Shown here: positions 20,232-64,000 of the stretch, one piece after another
Numbering within the stretch: position 1 is the stretch's first letter
How the letters are laid out: every line of letters begins with the position of its first letter
DNA from: Hypoxylon rubiginosum
Taxonomy: Eukaryota; Ascomycota; Sordariomycetes; Xylariales; Hypoxylaceae
Length of the DNA: 64,000 nucleotides
Assembly: GCA_902806565.1 (NCBI GenBank)
Contig: CADCXA010000010.1
Coordinates: 62,001 to 126,000 of the forward strand
Reading direction: 5' to 3'
Notes under the pieces: generated by a model
The model's input: only the letters and a program-made list of their open reading frames with translations
The model's database searches: none
Told to the model about the DNA's origin: nothing
Translations under genes and position numbers: made by a program

Positions 20232-20691
20232 TGATGATGAATTTGTTTACGGCCGGCTAACTACCTAGACATACAATATATCTATTGGCACAGCGACGCG
20301 CAACAGTGGCGCATAGGACGTCTGGAGTACCTCCAAGGAGACAGAGCCAGAGTTTCGCCTGACATATAGAAATCCACCGCTGTTCCTGCTCGTTTGCATT
20401 TCCTCCCCTTCGCTTGCCCTATACGGATATAGGGGCTTTTTCTAACCAGGGCGCCGGCCCTAGCTAGCCGATCCATTTCGCTTCAGGAAAAACCCTTCTC
20501 CAAGCCCGCCTATTCTAACGTCTCAGAAACCACCCTCCCGACGCCCGGCGAGCCCTAAAATGGGATTTAAAAAACCTGAGAATCGGATGGTTAAATAGAC
20601 CACGGCGGGATTCGAACCCACTTGTGTCCCCGTGCATTGCAATGCACGGGCCACACACAGCCAGGCGCTTTAACCACTGCGCCACGTGGGA
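20232..20691 (-). mobile_element. tRNA-derived SINE with perfect 14-bp target duplication
   Basis: A 460-bp insertion lies in the older LINE, flanked on both sides by gatgatgacttgga (20218-20231 and 20692-20705). Read on the minus strand it starts with a tRNA-like head carrying an A box (TGGCGCAGTGG) and a B box (GGTTCGAATCC). It then has about 360 bp of unrelated body and ends in a CATCATCAT-type tail next to the left duplication. Head, body, simple-repeat tail and long target duplication are what defines a SINE. Size and plan resemble Mg-SINE of Magnaporthe, but I could not compare sequence. It must have been mobilised by a LINE, possibly of the family it sits in. Confidence 0.85.
20597..20691 (-). 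promoter_or_regulatory. tRNA-like head of the SINE (Pol III promoter)
   Basis: A cloverleaf is partly possible: D arm GCGC/GCGC and T arm GTGGG-TTCGAAT-CCCGC pair, but the outer two acceptor pairs fail. Between the anticodon side and T arm lies a perfect 22-base palindrome starting cccgtgcattg. A and B boxes match consensus and would serve as an internal RNA polymerase III promoter. Because it is at the edge of a SINE, I call it a head and not a working tRNA gene; no anticodon is assigned. Confidence 0.75.
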
Positions 20692-35050: not shown

Positions 35051-36207
35051 GTAGTCTAGACAAACTTGTTTGCAAAGGTATTCTGGCGTTTTTGGGACTG
35101 CGAAAGTCCGTGATGGGAGAAGCCCTTCTATGGCTTCGAACGAATAACGATTTATACTTTGACGACAATTTTTGAAACCTGTGGGGTAAGAAAGAGAATA
35201 TATATATTAATACCTCGGATCCTTTTGGCTGTTGCCCACAACGCCAATACGGAATAAGAATCTGCGGCGCGATCTGGATATGTTCCTCAGCAGGCTAATC
35301 GTCTCCCTACATTCAATGACGACGTTAACGAAAGCGGTTCCCACGCGGAAGCCAAGAGCAGGAGCGATTTTAGCGCCCAAGATCTAATCGAGATTAACGA
35401 CGACAAATTCATGGCTGTGGATCGCGACCCATTTTGGGGGGGGAACGGATGAGGTGGACGGCTTAAACGTGGAAGGATGGGTGAATGCGCGTTGAGAGGC
35501 GGGGAACCTTAGGTACATGTAGGCAGAGATGATGTGGAGAGTGAGACTGGCGTGGGTTTCTTTCCTGACCTAACCGACCAGGTCAACGACGCGTAAAAGG
35601 CTCTCTTCGTACAGCAGTCAATCTACGCAGAGCTTCAGCAAGCGGTCCACTGCGATGGATAACGACCAGGCGCGATAATTCCAGACCTACAGGGAGTCGA
35701 ACTTTAGCGTAAAGTCGTACGTGAATAACCCCCCGAATTTCTTGCCCTGGGATATACATACCTGTTAACAATTTATAGATGGGCGTCCATTAAACTCCGG
35801 CAGCGTGGCGCGGCTGTGGTGACACATCCGGTCTTCCCCTTTCTAGTGTTCAGCCATTAGAAATATACGCACAATCTGCGAATCGATGACAGAAGAACAG
35901 CTTCTCTGCGCCAGTGAGCAGCCCAAGCATGCACCGTTTGCTTAAGGAGATCTTGATTGTTGGTCAGCAGCAGCCCTTGCCGAGCGAAGAAAAAGTCGTA
36001 TTGTTAAGCGTGATCTGCCAGCTGTATCCTCGCCGGTGGGCTTAACAGTTGCTCCGCCTGGTGTAGCAATTGGCAAGGGATCCTAACGAGTTAGCCGCGC
36101 AAAGACTTAACCGATTACAGAGCTCTCTTGACTAAAAGACTTGTTACCTACCGCGGTCATATATTGCAGAGAAACTAGCCGGTGTGATGTAGCTTCCCAT
36201 CAATGAC
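35051..36207. other. No gene seen
   Basis: Only short scattered frames. Possibly includes the 5' untranslated region of LINE copy 2 at its left edge. Confidence 0.5.
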
Positions 36208-36861
36208 CTATGTGAATTGGACAAGACGCCAAAACCCATCAATAAAGCACAATCGACACCAATCCATAGGCATATTCTCGTTTATGCGGGTTCGTTTCCA
36301 AAAGTTAAGTACGCACTGAGATTGGCGACAGAGGGGCACTTCACGAAGAAATGAATGTGACGTCGAAGCTGTCTTCTTATCTACGAAATCATCTTCTCTA
36401 CTATCTATTAAATCTTGAAGAACTTGACCTGCCACAGCATGATTGGGAGATGACGTTTGTTGACTTTTCCTAGAAGATCCCTACGGCTCCGAAGTCTCAT
36501 CATGCTGATGGTTTGGAATGTTGAGGATGCTAGGATGGACGAATCCTGTAGTTTCAGAGGTGTGATGTTGATCTTCCTCTATTTCAAATTCGCTGTACGG
36601 CGCAAATTCTCCAGCCTTTTAATATTCAGAGATGTGATGTTGATGTTCTGAAATTTGAAAAGGATGTTGTCCAAAAGGCACCAAAGGTTTAATAATAGGG
36701 ATGGCCGGACCTATAGGCCGAACAGGGCCCGCAGGTTGAACGTGGTTGGAGAGTTGGAATGTATTTATACCAGATGCTATTCTTTCTCGCATAGGTCTTG
36801 TGTCGTTGTTGACAGGCGGCTCCCTCCTGGAGCCGCGTACGTAACCGGATAGTCTAAACAT
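36208..36861 (-). pseudogene. Unknown protein gene with two in-frame stops
   Basis: One frame runs 217 codons from MFRLSGYVRGSRREPP to FIDGFWRLVQFT with TAA after QHHISEY and TAG after DETSEP; both would revert to Gln by a single C. The middle contains a Pro/Ile-rich stretch (GPVRPIGPAIPIIKP) and two related blocks, HPFQISEHQHHIS and EFEIEEDQHHTSE, about 25 residues apart. The C-terminal part (EVPLCRQSQCVLNFWKR, DWCRLCFIDGFW) is Cys/Trp-rich. No family is recognised. The two stops and no other damage suggest light RIP. Confidence 0.5.
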
Positions 36862-38505
36862 GCTGACAAATATGTTGTGGATTGATTTAACGTGAACATA
36901 TCATGGAAAGACGCCGGGAATAGACTTGATAATAGCTTCGGCATCGACATCGCAAAGCCTAAAACATACCTGACTGTTCATATCTTCTCCATAGTTGCAT
37001 GTGGTGATAGTCTAGCCCAGTATTATTCAATACCTGTATGATGTGGGCCACGATATCCAAAGCAGGGCATACGATATTACTATCCTCATTACCACATTAT
37101 CATTTTATCATTACATATCTACCTAAAAACTATTTTCGCTTCAAGTATACATTAATCCCTATAATTAAAATCTGCTTTACGTGGTAACGCATAAAAATGC
37201 ACAAACCCTATAGCCTTACCGTTGCCTAAGATCACTGGTACTAGAAAAGCCTGAACATATGCAAATTCTGTAGCCTCACCGCCGCCTTGTACGACCACGA
37301 CCAGGCAGGAATAGGATCAATCGTCCTAGAATATTCTAGATGACAGATTTATGTCAACCGAACACAAAAGTTTACAAAGTTTAATTGGCTATATTAGTAA
37401 ATTTTTATTAAGAGGCAACGATAGCCTTAGGAAAGCAATAAGGCGGAACTGGAACTTTGGTTATATGGATAAGCTATAAAAGCTCTCTTCCCTTAATGTC
37501 TCTGCTAGCAACTACGAAATTCTCACCTCTACTCGAAGTCGAAAGACAGGAACTAGAAAGAAATATCACCCAACACTTTAGAAGTCTCGGCTGTGGTTTC
37601 AGCATCGCTAAAACAGTGAGACAGAGGTTGTTAAGATATTCAACGTCATCTTCCTCTTGGGCCCGTTGCAGATGAAAGCGCCAATAGACTTATAGACCGC
37701 TCATAGACGTGTCCTTGCTACTCATACTATACTGGATACGCATCAGACGGCGTATCGCCACATAACTTCCTAGGTAGGTATCCTGTGCCACCAACACAAC
37801 GGCAGGAAAGCTCACCGCAATTGCGCATACTGACATCCTGACAGTCTAGATCAACGGCCCGTCGCGGTTGAAGTTCCCCGTTCTGACGATATCCGGTTCC
37901 GTGCTCCAACCTAAGATTTTAGGATACGTCTCCGAGACACGTACAGCTGTATACCGTGCCGACGGCAGGAAAGCTCACCGCAGTTGCGCATACTGGCAGT
38001 CTAGGTCTGCGACCCATCGCGGCTGGGGGTCCCCTTTTTGACTATAGCTGGTTTCACGCTCCATCGTAGAGATCCGAGACATAAGTGGATATTGTTTTTC
38101 TTGCCCTATCTTAAACGTTCGTTTCGTTTGAGGTACTATCTCTGTTGTAGGATTCTCTGGCTCGTGTAACGCGGCAGCGGATACAGGCTTTGGCTTCAAT
38201 TTTTGTGGGTAAAAACTTCAAACGCGACGAGGTCAGCGAAATTTTTTCATATCGCTTGTGTGACTGATGCAGTTATTAGGTTCAACTTCTATACCTTAAT
38301 AACGATTGCTTCAAACGCAGCAAGGTAGTGGAAAGGATTCCATCTTTTATACGGCATGGTTATTGATACCTACCTACATAAGACTCGACATATTTCCACT
38401 TCAATTAACAACCCAACTTCTTACCAATCCACACTGAACACAACCTCCTCTCTCTTAGATCTGAACTTATTCTCCTCTCTCTTGTCACTTTCGGTTTTCG
38501 TTACC
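36862..38505. repeat. Intergenic region with a duplicated 105-bp block
   Basis: The block at about 37805-37913 (ggaaagctcaccgcaattg and following) recurs at about 37966-38070, roughly 80% alike, both followed by a gctcca motif. On the minus strand each block would read CQY/CQD..LR with a common QPRxxVDLDCQ core, but stops interrupt it. The rest is AT-rich. It is the region upstream of gene A1. Confidence 0.6.
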
Positions 38506-39829
38506 ATGTCCGTGCCCATGACTCCAATGAAGTTGGGCTCGGGACAGGGTTCTCGCTACGCTGGTTCGGGTCTCACCATCACATTCCTCGCCACAGTACG
38601 TTTGGCTGAAAGAATTGAAAGGGACGAACAATTCATCAAGTTCGGTAACCTGGTCCTAGACTTTGGTGTGGCGATGCGCCCGAGGTTTGTCACAGATGTT
38701 GTCAGTTCGGAGTATTATTTTCGGGATACACATGTCCTGATGTCAGCCCACATGTGGAACTTGGGAGAATGCACCGTGAACGAAGGAGACGTTGTCATGG
38801 TTACCGGAACCTTCGCCCCCTGGGCGTTCCGGACCAAGTCTCCGGACGACGGCCCAGCGTGGAGTAGTCTCCTAACTACTTCATTACCAAACATTTCAGT
38901 GCAAGTATTCCATTATCAAGATAATATTTGCCTAGCTGACCATTATCTATAGCATACGGAACGTCAGTCTGCAAGACCCTAATAACTTTGCTCTGATGTC
39001 AGAGTGGGTACCCTGCTCATTTTATGGTCGGGTCTGCTCTGTTGCAGACATGCCGGGGCTCACTCTAAACATAAACCTCGTTTATGAGTTGAGTTCCTGT
39101 GGTGTCTGGGTGGAAATTCAGTATTATCTGAACCGTAGGGACGACAACGAGCCCCTAGGCTGCCTGAAAAAGGGGGCCTACTCGATGTACGTCTTTTTGT
39201 TTTTCGATGAGTCGGCGCGCAAGCGCCACAAGTGGGCACTAGCAGATGGCTCAGTCAAGCTGGCCACCAATGCGTACATCTACTGCACCGGAAGGATATC
39301 TGGTCAACTAAAGGAGGACTTCGTCGTGTCGGCGGGTTATGACAAGGAGACGCCACTAGATCTGTCTCCGGTTCTGGTTGTGGTGCCAAACGAACTACGT
39401 CAACCAGCCACGATGACAGGGACAAGCCAAGCAGGTGTATCGTCACCTACAAAGGCCACTGACGCAAGGTCGGAACTACAGCAGAAGCTGCTGCTCTCTG
39501 CTAAGAAGTCTGCGACGACTTCGAGAGCAGCGCAGAAGGCGCCAATGACAGATCTCACTCGATCAGAGGACTCCGGGTCGGATGGGGACGCTTCCGACCG
39601 CTCACTATCTCCAATTCAGGATATTCTCAAGAGGAAGATAGCTGCAGCTGATGCGGAGGCGGCGGAAGCAGAGGAAGATACTGCTAACGACACGGGTAAG
39701 TGCAAATTCCTACCGCGCTGGTCTAGGCTGACGGTTGCTCTATTGTATACATCAGACGAGGCTCAAATTGAGGAAGATGAGGCGTATGCGCGAGGACTGC
39801 GAAGCGGTACGAAGCGTCGTCGACAGTAA
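38506..39829 (+). CDS. Gene A1: TPxK / basic-tail nuclear protein, unknown family
   Basis: First protein of the A-B cassette. Exon 1 (38506 to about 38.86-38.90 kb) gives MSVPMTPMKLGSG, AGSGLTITFLATVRL and ends near GTFAPWAFRTKS. Exon 2 starts by 39003 with VPCSFYGRVCSV, YSMYVFLFFDESARKRH, YIYCTGRISGQL and LDLSPVLVVVPNE, then a Ser/Asp/Glu-rich linker. A third exon follows a 60-nt intron (GTAAGT..CATCAG) and ends GTKRRRQ. Conserved with A2 are TPxK, GSGL, PW[AS]FRT, CSF-GRV, CTGRI and SPV-V. 'GDVVMVTGTFAPW' and 'AYIYCTGRI' look like OB-type beta strands, which is inference. The basic C-terminus suggests the nucleus. The exon 1-2 junction is not resolved. HNH gene B1 starts 412 bp downstream on the same strand. 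Confidence 0.7.
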
Positions 39830-40240
39830 AGAGGGGAATGCGGACGGAGCCTGGGATTGTTGATTTTTTTTTACACTGCGAAGGCGTTTCAACATGATTG
39901 CCACCGACAGCATTATTCAACATGACTGCTGTCAATGCCTTTAAAGGAAGTTCATTAAAAGTAGCTTAGACTCACAAACAAATTAGGCAGTATTGTGTGC
40001 CCTTTTCTCCCTATCGGTATGTGAGTTCTCTTGAATGTAGGTATCTAGGTACCTAGATGCCGGATGGGGCTGATGGGGTAGGCGGAGTGGTCGGTAGGTG
40101 GAAATACCTAAACCCGATATATACGATGGAGACCCATCTTAAATGAGCCGGATGCTGCCTGTGAGGCTAGACAAGATATTATTCACTCCTACAACCCTTT
40201 CTTTGAATATATATACAAGCACATCAACCTGTATTCCATT

Positions 40241-41926
40241 ATGGCTCAAGAAACTCCCAAGGATCGAGAGTATCCCAAACTCACCCGACTTCCGACAGGT
40301 GCGGAACGAGCAAGAATTCTCAAACGTATCGATTTCTACCACCCAGCCTACCCGAAAGCTCCACCATTGTTCACGGTTCGCGCAGCAGACAATGGAGGCG
40401 TGCACTACAACATACCGTACTACGCCTGCTGTATCATAGCTGGAAATTGTTGGCACGAAGACGAGGGGAGACAATCGAGTCCCGACCACCCATTTTTCTC
40501 CTCGACTCCCGATCCAAATACTCGCATCACCATACCGACCGATAGTATTCTGCGCGACGCCCAATATTGGTTCCAAGTTCCAACGATTATAACAAACTTC
40601 CGTACCGATATTATTGATGATATTTCCGCCGGTTCTCAATACGACATAGGCCCGTATCCGATTGTCCCAAACTTCACACACTGGGACTTCCCCAAACATA
40701 TTCCTAAGCCCTGGAAGGAAGTGCCGATTTTACCCATCAACCCAGCCCCTAGCGAACGACGCAGCCAACACCCAAGTGAGCCTTCAACTTCAACCGCGGC
40801 CGAACAAACCATCAGTGATCCTACAGCAGGTCGAAGATCAGCGATGATTCATGATGAAGCCTGTCGCATCACCGGATCTACTTGGGCTTTAGAGTTGGGT
40901 CATATTATTCCACAAGCTGCTAACCAATGGTTCAACGAAAACCACATGCGCCTATTCCAAGATAATGCTCTGGGAGAGAAGGACAACGGGGCGATTGACG
41001 ATTTTTCGAATGTTGTTCCTATTCGTCAAGATCTGCATAAACTTCACGATAGTTGCTACATTGTCTTCTTCCCATTGCCGAGATACGATGATCCTCGCAC
41101 CTACAGGCTGGTTTCCTACATATTTCAAGGGGCCGACAAGTCCCTCGATACCACACTAGAGGTGCACGAGCTCTTCCACCGGAGTCCATGTTTTCCTCTT
41201 ATTGGAGTTCCTCCTGAGTACCTTTTTGCTCGGTTCGCATGGTCTGTTTTCTACTTGAGATCGATGCCGATCATGAAACAGAAGAAAGAATTCTTCGAGT
41301 TTCGAGTTCTTGAGTCTATTCCAATGAAGGGTCGTCGAGTATTCACAGAAAGAGCAAGGCCAAGCAAATGGACAAAGGAACTGAAGGTCAACCCAACGGC
41401 CGGTAGGAAGCGAAGCCACGAAGAAGCAGGCGACACTGGAGCGCATCCGAATGAGTCGATAGTTGATTCAGACTATGACACCGACTCGGACGTATCCGAT
41501 CGAGCATCTGTCGATTCGGAATTCTACAAACGACCTTTCGATGTCTGTGGCAGTCCAGATGAATATAGCAGCGACAGCGAAAGCGAGCCTGATGATGCGC
41601 ATCCTCCAAAGCGCTCCCGATCCTCATCTACTGATGACATGACTAAGGGGGATAGAGATAGTGGTTTGCCACATCACAGTCAACAGGTCTCACCACCAAG
41701 TAGCGACGTAGATTCAGTACCATCTTGGTCTCGCTCCTCTGCAGCATACATCCTAGTGAAAGTCAACAGACCGGTTTCCCCCCCAGATACAGATATTAAT
41801 TCCGCACCCTCGCTGTCTCAATCTATAGATAGCATCGGAAGTAGCAATACAGGTACTATAGACCACGACGGAGAGAATCATCCAAAGAAGTTAATTGCTA
41901 ATATTCTTAATAAAACAATAACGTGA
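40241..41926 (+). CDS. Gene B1: HNH_2-type nuclease, 561 aa
   Basis: N-terminal block FYHPAYPKAPPLFTVRAAD and YYACCIIAGNCWHEDEGR is shared with B2. The nuclease core has a Cys at 208 (CRITG), His 221 in ELGHIIP, Asn 257 in SNVVPIRQDLH and His 266, so the H-N-H set is complete. A long C-terminal tail is acidic and Ser-rich (YDTDSDVSDRASVDSEF) with a basic PPKRSRSSS stretch. Positions 40606-40653 (GTACCG..CATAG, 48 nt) could be an intron: removing it joins NFR to PYPIVPNF exactly where B2 has an intron. HNH_2 proteins are frequent in fungi but their biological role is mostly unknown. Same strand as A1. No premature stop. Confidence 0.85.
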   Translation: MAQETPKDREYPKLTRLPTGAERARILKRIDFYHPAYPKAPPLFTVRAADNGGVHYNIPYYACCIIAGNCWHEDEGRQSSPDHPFFSSTPDPNTRITIPTDSILRDAQYWFQVPTIITNFRTDIIDDISAGSQYDIGPYPIVPNFTHWDFPKHIPKPWKEVPILPINPAPSERRSQHPSEPSTSTAAEQTISDPTAGRRSAMIHDEACRITGSTWALELGHIIPQAANQWFNENHMRLFQDNALGEKDNGAIDDFSNVVPIRQDLHKLHDSCYIVFFPLPRYDDPRTYRLVSYIFQGADKSLDTTLEVHELFHRSPCFPLIGVPPEYLFARFAWSVFYLRSMPIMKQKKEFFEFRVLESIPMKGRRVFTERARPSKWTKELKVNPTAGRKRSHEEAGDTGAHPNESIVDSDYDTDSDVSDRASVDSEFYKRPFDVCGSPDEYSSDSESEPDDAHPPKRSRSSSTDDMTKGDRDSGLPHHSQQVSPPSSDVDSVPSWSRSSAAYILVKVNRPVSPPDTDINSAPSLSQSIDSIGSSNTGTIDHDGENHPKKLIANILNKTIT

Positions 41927-42514
41927 TTTCTTTGGCAAGTAACTTCGTCGGATTTGATTATATCATTTCATTCTAATCTTTTTGATCTATTTTCATTTCA
42001 ATCGAACACTTTTTTATAGTTAGAAGGATAGGTTGAAATAGTAGGTTAGATTACTAGCTTGGGTTCCTTAAAACAGTTTAGCTTGTTTCAATTAAAGGAT
42101 TATGAACCTAAAACTCGGGTTTATTATGCCGCCCTAGCGCGGGGGGCCTCATTTTACGAGGGTTATTATGTCGTGTGCCCGAGTGCCCGAGTTTACGAGG
42201 GTTATTGTGTCGTGTTTTTTTTTCTATAGGAGGAGCTCGTCGCCCAAATAAGAAAGTAAAACTAAACTCGGGCATGGGCCGACTAAAGTTGCGGTCGATA
42301 ATTTCGCTCTTTATATCAAGGGTTAAATGTCGGACGGGCGATAGTTTGTCAGCAATGTGGTATTATATTGACTACCTACCTCCTATCATCCATTTCCGGT
42401 ACAGCTCACTCTGCATCACCGTAGGGCCAACCTAAATCTCCTACAACTCTGGACAATTGAAGCCCTGCAAGTATTCCCCCCCCCCCGGTATTGCTGCACA
42501 CCGTGACGGTGCTT
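41927..42514. repeat. Intergenic region with repeated acgagggttatt words
   Basis: ttacgagggttattatgtcgtg (42153) and tttacgagggttattgtgtcg (42191) are close direct repeats with actcggg/cccgagt motifs in both orientations around them. The second copy continues into the block shared with 28521-28555. May be a degenerate small DNA element. Confidence 0.5.
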
Positions 42515-59704: not shown

Positions 59705-60896
59705 TCAATTAGTTCGCGTCTTCTTTGTTGGAGACCCCTTATTGTCTTCGTCTTCGTCTTCGTCAGTAGAGTCCATGAATCGTGTTCTTCCGCCCGACAT
59801 TCGATTCCGCGGGTTCTTCTTGGCTGTGCTGCTTGGCCCTGATCGCGTTGGAGTCTGGCCAAGGTGTTCGATGCGTCGCAGTATATCTGCTTGTTGTGGA
59901 GTGTCGAAGGTGAATATAGGTTCGGTCGCCTGTGCGATTGCTGGCATGGACATGGGTATCAGAAGCAGGGACTCCCCAGGGACGATAACATAAACCGGGG
60001 ACTTGTCAAGTGGGCAGTTGGCTTCGTGTCCTGCAACCTCTATGTTCGTTTCGTCGATCGTTCCCATGATTCGTCCTGTGCAAAAGATGTACTCTCCATC
60101 TTTAATATAGGGCACCTCGTTATCTTCATTGTCCTTCATGACCTAGCTATGTCTACGTCTTGAATCTTTGTCGAACAAGATGTAGACATAGAAGACATAT
60201 TGTCCTTTTGGTAGAAGCTTGTTCTTCGCCTGCTCGTCAGCGACATCGAAGTTGAAGAATAGCTCTACCAAAACACCGTGCTGTTGTAGTTGTTGAAGCT
60301 TGTCTTCTGCAAACTTCAATTTTGAGTTGTCTGGTTGGTGAACCACTCGTCCCAGGAATGAGCATGATAGCCATTCCTCTTAGACTGCAGCGGTTATGGT
60401 TGATGGCATCCAAGCCCTCAAGCTTGTCAGAGTCAGTAAGTGAGTCCCTTTTAGGTCTATTTCATGGTGGATTTATTACTCACTCTTGTAACCCCCGTCT
60501 AGACCCCAGTAGCAATGTCTGATACGTTTCAAGAACGTCCATCGCGTCCTTGCTCTCAGTTCGAAACGACCAAGGGCATAGCGTAGCCTGTAGAGAGCAA
60601 TACTCTACGTCTGGCTTTGGGTTGAAATTATCGGGCTCGGATTTGAGGTAGAGATGGAATAGCTGTTCCTTCATGCTCTTGAACCACCCATAGTTGGACA
60701 TACCAGGTACCTTTACATTAAGTAGGCTTGTTGTGACGGTGGCCCCAACTCGATAATCATAATCGTTCAGGAGCCGGTTCCCTTTTTTCAGACGTACGTA
60801 GTTCAGGCCCATGATACTCATGTCAACTTGAAGACCGGACCCTTGGAAGCCGTCTTTGGGTTGCGATCGTTTGATGGGAGTCGATGGGGTCGCCAT
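59705..60896 (-). pseudogene. Gene A2: copy of the A protein with a Trp-to-stop change
   Basis: ATG at 60896: MATPSTPIKRSQPKDG, FQGSGLQVDMSIMGL and TLCPWSFRTESKD. After an intron region (about 60480-60365): WLSCSFLGRVVHQPDN, GQYVFYVYILFDKDSRRRHS, then TAG and VMKDNEDNEV. A1 reads ARKRHKWALADG at this point, so TAG replaces the conserved Trp (TGG) by one G-to-A. Then EYIFCTGRIMGT, AGHEANCPLDKSPVYVIVPGE, an acidic stretch (DSTDEDEDEDNK) and SPTKKTRTN. The length fits A1 closely, so apart from this stop (and a splice boundary not resolved) the gene is complete. Lies 640 bp downstream of B2 on the same strand. Confidence 0.7.
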
Positions 60897-61535: not shown

Positions 61536-63154
61536 CTACTGGCGAGACTTGGAAAGATTTGGTATAGCGTGTTGTAAGGGTGGTTCGGGTTTCAGATCCG
61601 CATTCTCACATCTTTCCACAGATATACCATTCACAGGGTAAGAAGGGGTAGGCTTGATAGGTGTGTTATTACTGTCAGAACAGTCGCTGTGAGAAGAGTA
61701 ATCATCCGAAGAGTCATCGTCAAACATGCAGTCATGGTCCTCTGAGAGGTGATCACTCAGCTCATCATGATCGTCAGTTTCGAACCCGTCATCATCAGAT
61801 TGCCACTCCATTCGGCCTGTACGGTAGGAGTACAACAGCTCCTGGCGCTTGTGTTCCTGGGGGTTGGTTCCACTGACTTCTTCTATTCGTCGCTTCTTGC
61901 CACCAGTGGCCTTGGCAGTCGCTGGAGTAATATCCTTTCCAAGGAGTGTCTTCACTATATGATGTCTGTATCCATACTTATCCACCAGCACGGTGAAAAC
62001 CGCGTAACTCTTTCCAGCGTTGTCATCGTCGAATATATTCATTGTGTAATGCGTAAAGATAGCCCAAGCGAAACGGACAAAGAAGAATTCTACTGGCACA
62101 TGTGGGACTGGGTAGCAAGGTCGATTCTGATATGCGGCGAATATTTGCATGTCGGAATCTTCTGACTTGTCCGGAGGTTCCCACACATGTGTGCCTAGAC
62201 GATACGTCCCTGGGTGGTCAGAGTCAGGCTTCGGTACCATTATGATATAGTTGTGATCCCATATAGTGTGAATATCGTGGCGGAGAAACATTCGGTTGCA
62301 TGGGTGGTCAATGAAAGCTTTGACTCTCGATTTGCCTTTGGTTTTGAACCGTTCCATGTTATTTGCCATAACCCATCCTTGGGCGCTTATTGGCATCACA
62401 TGGGCGTTCGTGGCGCATGTCAAGTCGTATGTCACGCGGCAAGCGGTTCGATTGGCATCGTACTCCACCATATCTTGGACGCATGCGGGGACAGTCCCAG
62501 CGTTGTACGGGTTGGCGGTGGTGTCGGTGCCGCTAGAGGTGGCGGTGGTGTCGGCGCCGCTAGAAGTACTGGTTGATGTACGTTGGGTAGCGCGTGTCCG
62601 TGTTCGTGTTCGTTTGATTCTTAAACCTTCCCAGGGTTTTGGAATCGTCTCTGGGAAGTTCCAGTCATCGAAGTTTGGGACAATGGGGTATGGGTTATCT
62701 GTGATTTGGAGTTAGCCCTGCTTGAGTGGGCAGACAATCTACCGTGAGTAGAGAACTTACCGTTCGTATACCTGGGGACGTGAAAGAAGTAACGCCCGGC
62801 AGGGACAAGATCATCCTGAATGACAAGCCGAGTCTGCAATACTGTGTTGGCAGGGGTTGTGCCATTTTGAACGATAACTCTAGACTCTGGGCCGATACGG
62901 GTTGTAGAGAGGTATGGTCCTTCGGTCTGTTCGTTGCGACCTTCGTCATCTTGCCAACAGTTTCCTGCGATCACACAACAGGCATAGTACACTATGCCGT
63001 AGTCTAGCTTGCCGTCGTCCGAGGCACGCAGAGTAAGGAGTCTTGCTGGAGGTGCATATCCAGGATGATAGATCTCGATTTCGTCTTGAAGTCGTTCGCG
63101 CTCGTCGTCTATGGCAAGCGGCAGAGGTGGTAGACAGAAAGGCTTATACTTCAT
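61536..63154 (-). CDS. Gene B2: HNH_2-type nuclease
   Basis: ATG at 63154 (MKYKPFCLPPLPL). The N-terminal block IEIYHPGYAPPARLLTLRA and YYACCVIAGNCWQDDEGR matches B1. After VPRYTN an intron (GTAAGT..TCACAG, about 62758-62696) leads to NPYPIVPNFDDWNFPETIP, as in B1, then an RTRTRTRATQR basic stretch and a TSSGADTTATSSGTD repeat. The core has TACRVTYDL, NAHVMPISAQ (first His), CNRMFLRHDIH (Asn, His) and NYIIMVPKPDSDHPGTYRLG. FVRFAWAIFTHY matches FARFAWSVFY of B1. The tail is acidic. All three HNH residues are present and no stop is seen. Roughly 520 aa after splicing. Confidence 0.85.
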
Positions 63155-63456: not shown

Positions 63457-63805
63457 TCAGAAATATATGAGAAACTCATTCGCGTTTATCAGCCTTAGCT
63501 ACCATCTATCTAGCAATTTATCGCAGTTCTTTCGTATTCTTGTGTTTCATGTATAACTCATCGCATTTTTTTTTCGTTTTGTTTCGTGTTGGTTGCAAAT
63601 CCATCGCCGTTGAATTCCATTGCGTGTAGAGTCGATGGTCTAGCCCCTTACTGTTGACCATCACATGTTACATATGCTCTGGTAAGGGTTACGCTGCCTC
63701 AGTTGGTGCGCTTTCGCTTGGTAGGAGACTCGTTAGTCTGTTGTTGCGTACGTGCGGGGGTTGGAGTCTGTGGGGTTTGCGGTGTTGTAGGTTGAGGCAA
63801 ATTTG
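63457..63805. repeat. Right arm of the 0.34-kb inverted repeat
   Basis: Covers the region between B2 and A3 and the last codons of A3; its reverse complement is found at 58363-58696. This arm keeps the A3 reading frame intact, so it is the better-preserved copy. Confidence 0.8.
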
Positions 63806-64000
63806 CTCGGCCTGCGTGTTGCCTTCGTTGCAACATCGCCGACTGCGGCTGGGGCCCATCTCGAGGTGCTGGCTCTGAAGTCCCTGGGACTGGGTCGGCC
63901 GGCGCTGAGATTGGCCGTAGGCTCTCTCCCACGACAATGACATACACTGGAGCTTTGGTGACAGGTGTGTTGGCTTCGTGGCCAGCCTTCTCAACCAGAT
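63699..64000 (-). CDS. Gene A3: C-terminal part of another A protein, runs off the window
   Basis: The minus strand reads LVEKAGHEANTPVTKAP, VYVIVVGESLRPISAPA, then a Pro/Gln-rich linker (NLPQPTTPQTPQTPTP) and ends NESPTKRKRTN. GHEAN-P---(K)xPVYVIV-GES is shared with A2, and SPTK followed by a basic run ends both. The upstream two thirds of the gene lie beyond 64000. B2 begins 545 bp downstream on the same strand, so the order A then B is the same as in the A1-B1 pair. No stop is seen in the visible part. Confidence 0.75.
   Translation of the reverse strand, partial: LVEKAGHEANTPVTKAPVYVIVVGESLRPISAPADPVPGTSEPAPRDGPQPQSAMLQRRQHAGRANLPQPTTPQTPQTPTPARTQQQTNESPTKRKRTN

Follow-up and report, generated by a model that had tools for sequence, protein, structure and literature searches.

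Putative HNH nuclease and OB-like partner genes as probable components of Helitron2-like rolling-circle transposons in Hypoxylon rubiginosum

Within the sections of the literature consulted, the nearest described relatives of the transposon analyzed here are the Helitron2-like elements FoHeli3-5 of Fusarium oxysporum (PMC5148889). According to those sections, FoHeli3-5 start with TGCCT, carry an inverted repeat of 13-16 bp and close at the 3' end with CTCCTGT, and FoHeli3 possesses an extra ORF, placed upstream of the transposase in the opposite orientation, that has no known domains and is confined to Helitrons; the same sections state that RPA-like genes were not found in FoHelis, nor an endonuclease domain in any fungal Helitron, and mention one extra ORF only (PMC5148889). 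For Pleurotus ostreatus, the accessible part of the report on HELPO1 Helitrons describes intact copies with one to four further genes, most of them domainless, and a predicted nuclease, capF, with an RNase H-like fold (COG4328) (PMC4289320). As judged from these cap genes, extra genes in fungal Helitrons were thus already known, and HNH is absent from the main text of that report as far as it was accessible. In oomycetes, effector genes occur in Helitron-rich regions and some contain HNH-like motifs, with no fungal Helitron gene in the portion of the paper considered (PMC5289972), and the corresponding portions of two other papers (PMC5718144 and PMC8914235) contain nothing on an HNH gene in fungal Helitrons. 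In the sections of the open-access literature covered here, an HNH gene was not found in any fungal Helitron.

The window analyzed here is a stretch of 64,000 nucleotides on contig C10 of the 48.3-Mb assembly that was searched, and it contains two ordered pairs of genes designated A and B. A1 (38506-39829) is followed by B1 (40241-41926), both on the plus strand, with a gap of 411 bp, and on the minus strand A3 likewise precedes B2, with a gap of 544 bp. The first exon of A1 (38506-38901), identified as an ORF and by alignment to the A genes of Helitrons on contigs C66 and C25, corresponds to the N-terminal part of the second gene of these Helitrons; it is followed by a putative GC-AG intron (38902-38952), read by eye from the sequence and in the same splice phase as in the C25 gene. 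The second exon (38953-39695) encodes a predicted OB-like domain and then a low-complexity tail, as suggested by alignments, an AF2 model and a weak fold comparison, and the third (39756-39829) encodes a basic C-terminal tail as read from its sequence; the second intron (39696-39755, 60 nt) preserves the reading frame, so that its retention is possible. The exon junction in the A1 protein used as a query is approximate, to within a few residues. B1 is a single exon encoding a 561-aa HNH_2 protein (PF13391, E 2.5e-8, residues 208-276), with the H-N-H set kept in its HNH domain at about 40862-41068 of the plus strand. On the minus strand, B2 (61536-63154) has two exons and is HNH_2-like by genome and protein alignments, and the 3' part of A3 (63699-64000) runs beyond the window to C10:126328, its 5' part not being found. 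Also on the minus strand are A2 (59706-60896), an A-family pseudogene with an in-frame TAG, and a scrap with stops of a gene for RepHel, the Helitron Rep-helicase (506-835, C10:62506-62835); a second RepHel scrap, from another Helitron and with three stops, lies on the plus strand (35765-35992, C10:97765-97992). The first-pass annotation had placed both A-B pairs at these sites and in this order, which a re-reading of the ORFs bears out, and had held the pairs to be too strongly diverged for a fresh copy; the proteins of A1 and A3 are indeed 33% identical and those of B1 and B2 34-46%. An origin of the window pairs by one recent duplication is ruled out by these identities of 33-46%.

Besides clean copies, a search of the genome with B1 and A1 revealed seven TAA-riddled sites at which B comes after A with both genes on one strand, on contigs C53, C57, C6, C27 (two) and C61 (two). 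The AT-rich blocks that contain these copies have a G+C content of roughly 3-14% in each kb, except at their edges and in an insert at C57. Loose alignments were flooded by chance AT-rich or two-letter matches, and exact 24-mers were used instead; long runs of them are shared between the window and the C53 copy. In a purine/pyrimidine code, positions 36241-42264 of the window are 95-99% identical, by stretch, to the seven copies. By a pairing method that detects transitions only, the change from the window to C53 comprises C>T at 1226 of 1417 C and G>A at 1120 of 1334 G, as against 3 T>C and 12 A>G in the reverse direction, and CpA is the top context of the changes in all seven copies. Such one-directional C>T and G>A changes in seven copies point to repeat-induced point mutation (RIP), the window holding the one close copy that was found unmutated. 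RIP and the introns both suggest the genome of a filamentous ascomycete. A clean but more distant relative of part of the window copy, 81-90% identical by stretch, is located at C10:562358-565632.

The mutated copies delimit a larger repeat. Those at C53:348966-363514, C27:360532-375078 and C6:551905-569116 share a common left end and a nearly common right end, as expected of a multi-copy Helitron with common ends; the C6 copy also contains an insertion. Positions 36241-42264 of the window (plus strand), which match C53:357273-363518 and the six other mutated copies, are therefore a RIP-free fragment representing the right ~43% of a 14.5-kb element, referred to as family 2. In all seven mutated copies, as read outside the left 2-3 kb of the element (about C53:349-351.6 kb), A has RepHel upstream, encoded by the opposite strand, and B downstream; the RepHel part is missing from the window copy. 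Since the window copy belongs to a 14.5-kb repeat that carries RepHel, A1-B1 is not free-standing, and a free-standing A-B cassette is ruled out.

The left end of the element begins with TGCCCGAGTGCCCGAGTTTTAGG, a TGCCC start. A 13-bp inverted repeat, CCCGAGTTTTAGG, is present unmutated in the window (42107-42119, minus strand) as the partner of the left terminus at C53:348976-348988. Further to the right, a sequence of ~99 bp (42176-42274, plus strand) starts with TGCCCGAGTGCCCGAGTTT, like the left end of the element, and closes with ACTCGGGCA; by sequence comparison its first ~87 bp are dispersed in the genome, with 24 further match rows on 15 contigs, and it may represent a solo Helitron end or a small non-autonomous relative. 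Because 42176-42264 (~90 bp) also occurs in this dispersed end-like repeat, the element's own end is probably at or before 42175.

A second family was recognized from a clean locus, C66:1080157-1091143, which contains B, a 1439-aa ORF and an A gene divergent to that ORF, and which is flanked by what we take, by eye, to be an isopropylmalate-synthase-like gene and an importin-like gene. A Pfam scan of 1011 aa of the C66 RepHel matched Helitron_like_N (PF14214, E 9.7e-31) and PIF1 (E 1.4e-5; 25.3 bits, just below the cut-off of 25.9), and a 614-aa ORF immediately upstream matched DUF6570 (E 2.8e-15). The C66 element thus combines the Rep (HUH) part and the PIF1-type helicase of a Helitron, and the mutated copies match its Rep part. 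No Helentron-type AP-like endonuclease domain was listed by Pfam for these 1011 of 1439 aa or for the 614-aa ORF. Searches with the C66 A and B assigned nine copies to family 1, with the order A(-) RepHel(+) B(-) or its mirror image, the C66 copy being the only one not affected by RIP; the copy at C55:222372-238846, with A and B 14 kb apart, falls outside the 12-kb limit of the A-B count given below and was added by hand. With the C25 A as query, 12 further RepHel copies also have A, again divergent. The A-RepHel spacing is about 3.0 kb in eight of the nine family-1 copies and 3.8-3.9 kb in the five insert-free family-2 copies.

Across the genome, pooled loci clustered at 1.2 kb number at least 40 for A, at least 62 for B and at least 46 for RepHel, all lower bounds since the search scores the best candidates only and RIP hides genes. 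With neighbors defined by a limit of 12 kb, 31 of the 40 A loci found lie near RepHel, about one being expected by chance placement, and 30 of these are divergent; in the one remaining case the RepHel is the scrap at 35765-35992 in the window itself. A is therefore the usual second gene of these Helitrons in this genome. Among the 46 RepHel loci found, A is present at 31, B at 23 and both genes at 17, and 14 have A but no detected B; of the 15 without A, C10 and C60 account for ten, and four others are long RIP-mutated copies (C31, C59:851591, C64 and C16:1473487). B was found within 12 kb of 21 of the 40 A loci, just downstream on the same strand in 10, in a count whose B list omitted the C1 loci and all but one C60 locus (no other A is on these contigs). 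B is the regular third gene of two Helitron families. It also occurs by itself, in that no A or RepHel was found within 12 kb of 33 of the 62 B loci, and C10 and C60, with 2.2% of the genome, hold 32 of the 62.

For protein A, no significant relatives were found in Pfam or PDB, and six A proteins gave three weak Pfam rows, the best with E 0.047. In being divergent from RepHel (30 of 31 cases), upstream of the transposase and free of strong Pfam matches, A has the properties described for the extra ORF of FoHeli3. An AF2 model of its second half, of low confidence, resembles OB-fold proteins in a weak fold comparison; the DNA-binding role that the first-pass annotation proposed for A may be appropriate. 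RPA is not named among the 50 VIA rows listed for A, although A may still be related to it. For protein B, the full HNH set noted earlier is confirmed by the PF13391 match of B1 (E 2.5e-8) and by an alignment in which the H, N and H residues are kept in all seven clean B genes compared, one of them frame-broken; judging from its sequence, B probably cuts DNA as an HNH-type enzyme. B1 had no relatives in PDB at E up to 10, and an AF2 model of its residues 1-400 was unusable (pLDDT 31.9). No relatives of A1 or B1 were confirmed in viral contigs.

Taken together, A1 and B1 very probably belong to a Helitron2-like rolling-circle transposon with three protein genes, of which the window copy has lost the RepHel half. 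The linkage of A and B that was first noticed in the window is real, non-random, old and selfish in nature. As a two-gene unit it holds only in part: the ordered pair stands, and the self-contained cassette does not, since the most constant partner of A is RepHel (31 of 40). The expectation that A is usually beside an HNH_2 gene is likewise divided, as A is beside B in two Helitron families and B is undetected in others. In transposition, RepHel would nick the DNA and unwind, or peel, one strand, and A, being OB-like, would with about even chances coat the released single strand. As a predicted nuclease, B might act by cutting either the second strand or the target, or by trimming the intermediate, although this is rather doubtful; alternatively, B may be a passenger or an anti-competitor nuclease carried by the element.

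The order is A(-) RepHel(+) B(-) in family 1 and B(-) A(-) RepHel(+) in family 2. Both are identical on a circle, and the families therefore differ only in the positions of their ends. The permuted order could stem from a circular intermediate or from a tandem array, as judged from these two families, in both of which A is next to RepHel, so that for B a matching orientation has an even chance of arising at random; an A-RepHel-B order cut at different points of the circle is the footprint that a circular intermediate would leave. At C59:844994-853072 and C31:1602952-1611946, B and RepHel share a strand, with B ~6.3 kb upstream, and no A was found; these arrangements fit neither family order. 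A wider scenario is offered tentatively: a lineage of three-gene Helitrons with RepHel, an SSB-like coat protein and an HNH nuclease acting in excision or target cutting may have given rise to circularly permuted families as the ends moved in a circular intermediate, and the nuclease may later have left the element and increased in copy number on two small, RIP-poor contigs. For the processing of the second strand by Helitrons and their choice of targets, the conserved partner gene A and the separate nuclease-type gene B of two families are named candidates that can be tested in plasmid assays.

The same observations bear on other explanations, of which the capture of A and/or B from the host or a foreign source, as passengers without a role in transposition, is unlikely but the strongest. 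Helitrons are described as capturing genes in the part of the FoHeli report considered (PMC5148889), the Pleurotus elements carry cap genes of unknown origin according to the accessible text (PMC4289320), and the 33 B loci away from A and RepHel and the 14 RepHel loci with A but no detected B would suit such passengers. They would not be expected to show A divergent to RepHel at similar spacing in several diverged families, open frames in A1, B1 and the C66 A and B, an H-N-H set kept in seven of seven clean B genes compared, or, in two families, a B gene that keeps one orientation with respect to both A and RepHel. Somewhat less probable is that B acts outside transposition as a counter-measure carried by the element and directed at its rivals or at repair and silencing by the host. 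B is undetected in some Helitron families and yet reaches 32 of 62 loci on C10 and C60 (2.2% of the genome), which would fit this role, but there is no evidence of target choice, and the fixed place of B in two families fits a role in transposition equally well.

A drive, homing or toxin-protector pair, in which B would cut cassette-free DNA and A would guide or protect, is very improbable. In the features analyzed here, no sign of meiotic drive, homing or genome defence was noticed. A nuclease-like protein and a possible DNA-binding partner do occur together at the 10 A loci with B just downstream. Their linkage is, however, accounted for by the Helitron, which counts against such a pair, as do the occurrence of A with RepHel and no detected B at 14 RepHel loci and the 33 of 62 B loci that lack A or RepHel nearby.

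As probable members of a Helitron2-like transposon, A and B can be set against the described systems. Like FoHeli3-5, the present element has a RepHel transposase, a 5' TGCC start and a 13-bp terminal inverted repeat set in from the 3' end, and the doubled left end of its C27 copy corresponds to the doubled 5' ends described for FoHelis in general (PMC5148889). Unlike FoHeli3-5 with TGCCT and CTCCTGT, it starts with TGCCC, and CTCCTGT was not noticed at its 3' end when read by eye; it is also longer (~14.5 kb versus 9-11 kb) and has an HNH_2 gene, whereas the FoHeli report found an endonuclease domain in no fungal Helitron (PMC5148889). A fits the extra ORF of FoHeli3 by position. Helentrons are likewise Helitron2 elements with an added nuclease, but theirs is a domain gained from a retrotransposon (PMC5148889), whereas here HNH_2 is a separate gene. 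The Pleurotus cap genes are described as downstream of RepHel with no copies outside Helitrons (PMC4289320); compared by description, A is upstream and divergent, and B has many outside copies. Plant Helitrons with RPA-like genes, e.g. Mothra, resemble the present elements in a second gene that is possibly single-strand-binding, and the Mothra mother copy keeps its RPA-like gene without RepHel, as the window copy keeps A (PMC4683698). Unlike the plant genes, A has no relation to RPA detectable in searches of Pfam and PDB. Fanzor genes, which have a link to Helitrons, are TnpB-related and thus of a family unrelated to the HNH_2 of B. The eukaryotic transposons that carry Fanzor nonetheless offer a parallel in a transposon-borne nuclease-type gene of uncertain role (PMC3627910). 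Relative to the literature compared here, in the sections considered, it appears to be new that an HNH gene regularly forms the third gene in two families of fungal Helitrons, that A and RepHel are paired divergently with B at a constant place, and that A is the usual second gene of Helitrons in this genome.

The Helitrons of this genome appear to exhibit more than one gene arrangement. At and beyond C25:409647-415465, a Rep-helicase (RepHel) open frame of 2108 aa lies divergent to A, the OB-like protein gene that is the usual second gene of these elements, and the genome-wide search detected no B, the HNH_2 nuclease-type gene, within 12 kb; this locus is possibly an intact Helitron of two genes. 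At both C59:844994-853072 and C31:1602952-1611946, RepHel is preceded, ~6.3 kb upstream on its own strand, by a B copy mutated by repeat-induced point mutation (RIP), and this order may represent a third Helitron arrangement.

Within a RIP-mutated Helitron on contig C57, the segment C57:155817-161625 is of normal G+C content and is flanked by identical 184-bp direct repeats. It is probably an LTR retrotransposon and, being of normal G+C within a mutated host, was probably inserted later than the RIP of that element. Two RIP-mutated Helitron copies were also observed at C61:52-80 kb as a near-identical, head-on inverted pair with a spacer of ~0.9 kb, representing either a post-RIP inverted duplication or an assembly artefact.

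Two further genes with the Rep-part domain Helitron_like_N, at C60:110879-111463 (open frame of 1412 aa) and C10:394167-394751 (644 aa), were not picked up by the query from the clean C66 Helitron, and no A was detected within 12 kb of either. The window, itself part of C10, also contains a 95-nt tRNA-His (GTG) at 20597-20691, predicted with bacterial settings.

Together, C10 (679 kb) and C60 (397 kb) constitute 2.2% of the genome and hold 32 of the at least 62 B loci. At 21 of these 32, both A and RepHel were missing from the surrounding 12 kb, and most of the B matches on the two contigs contain few or no stops. The clean B copy at C60:253839-255321, which shares 89-96% identity with B of the C66 Helitron and has neither A nor RepHel among the genome-wide locus positions in its 12-kb surroundings, is a nuclease gene copied out on its own. 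The two contigs look like accessory-chromosome contigs carrying an expanded nuclease family.
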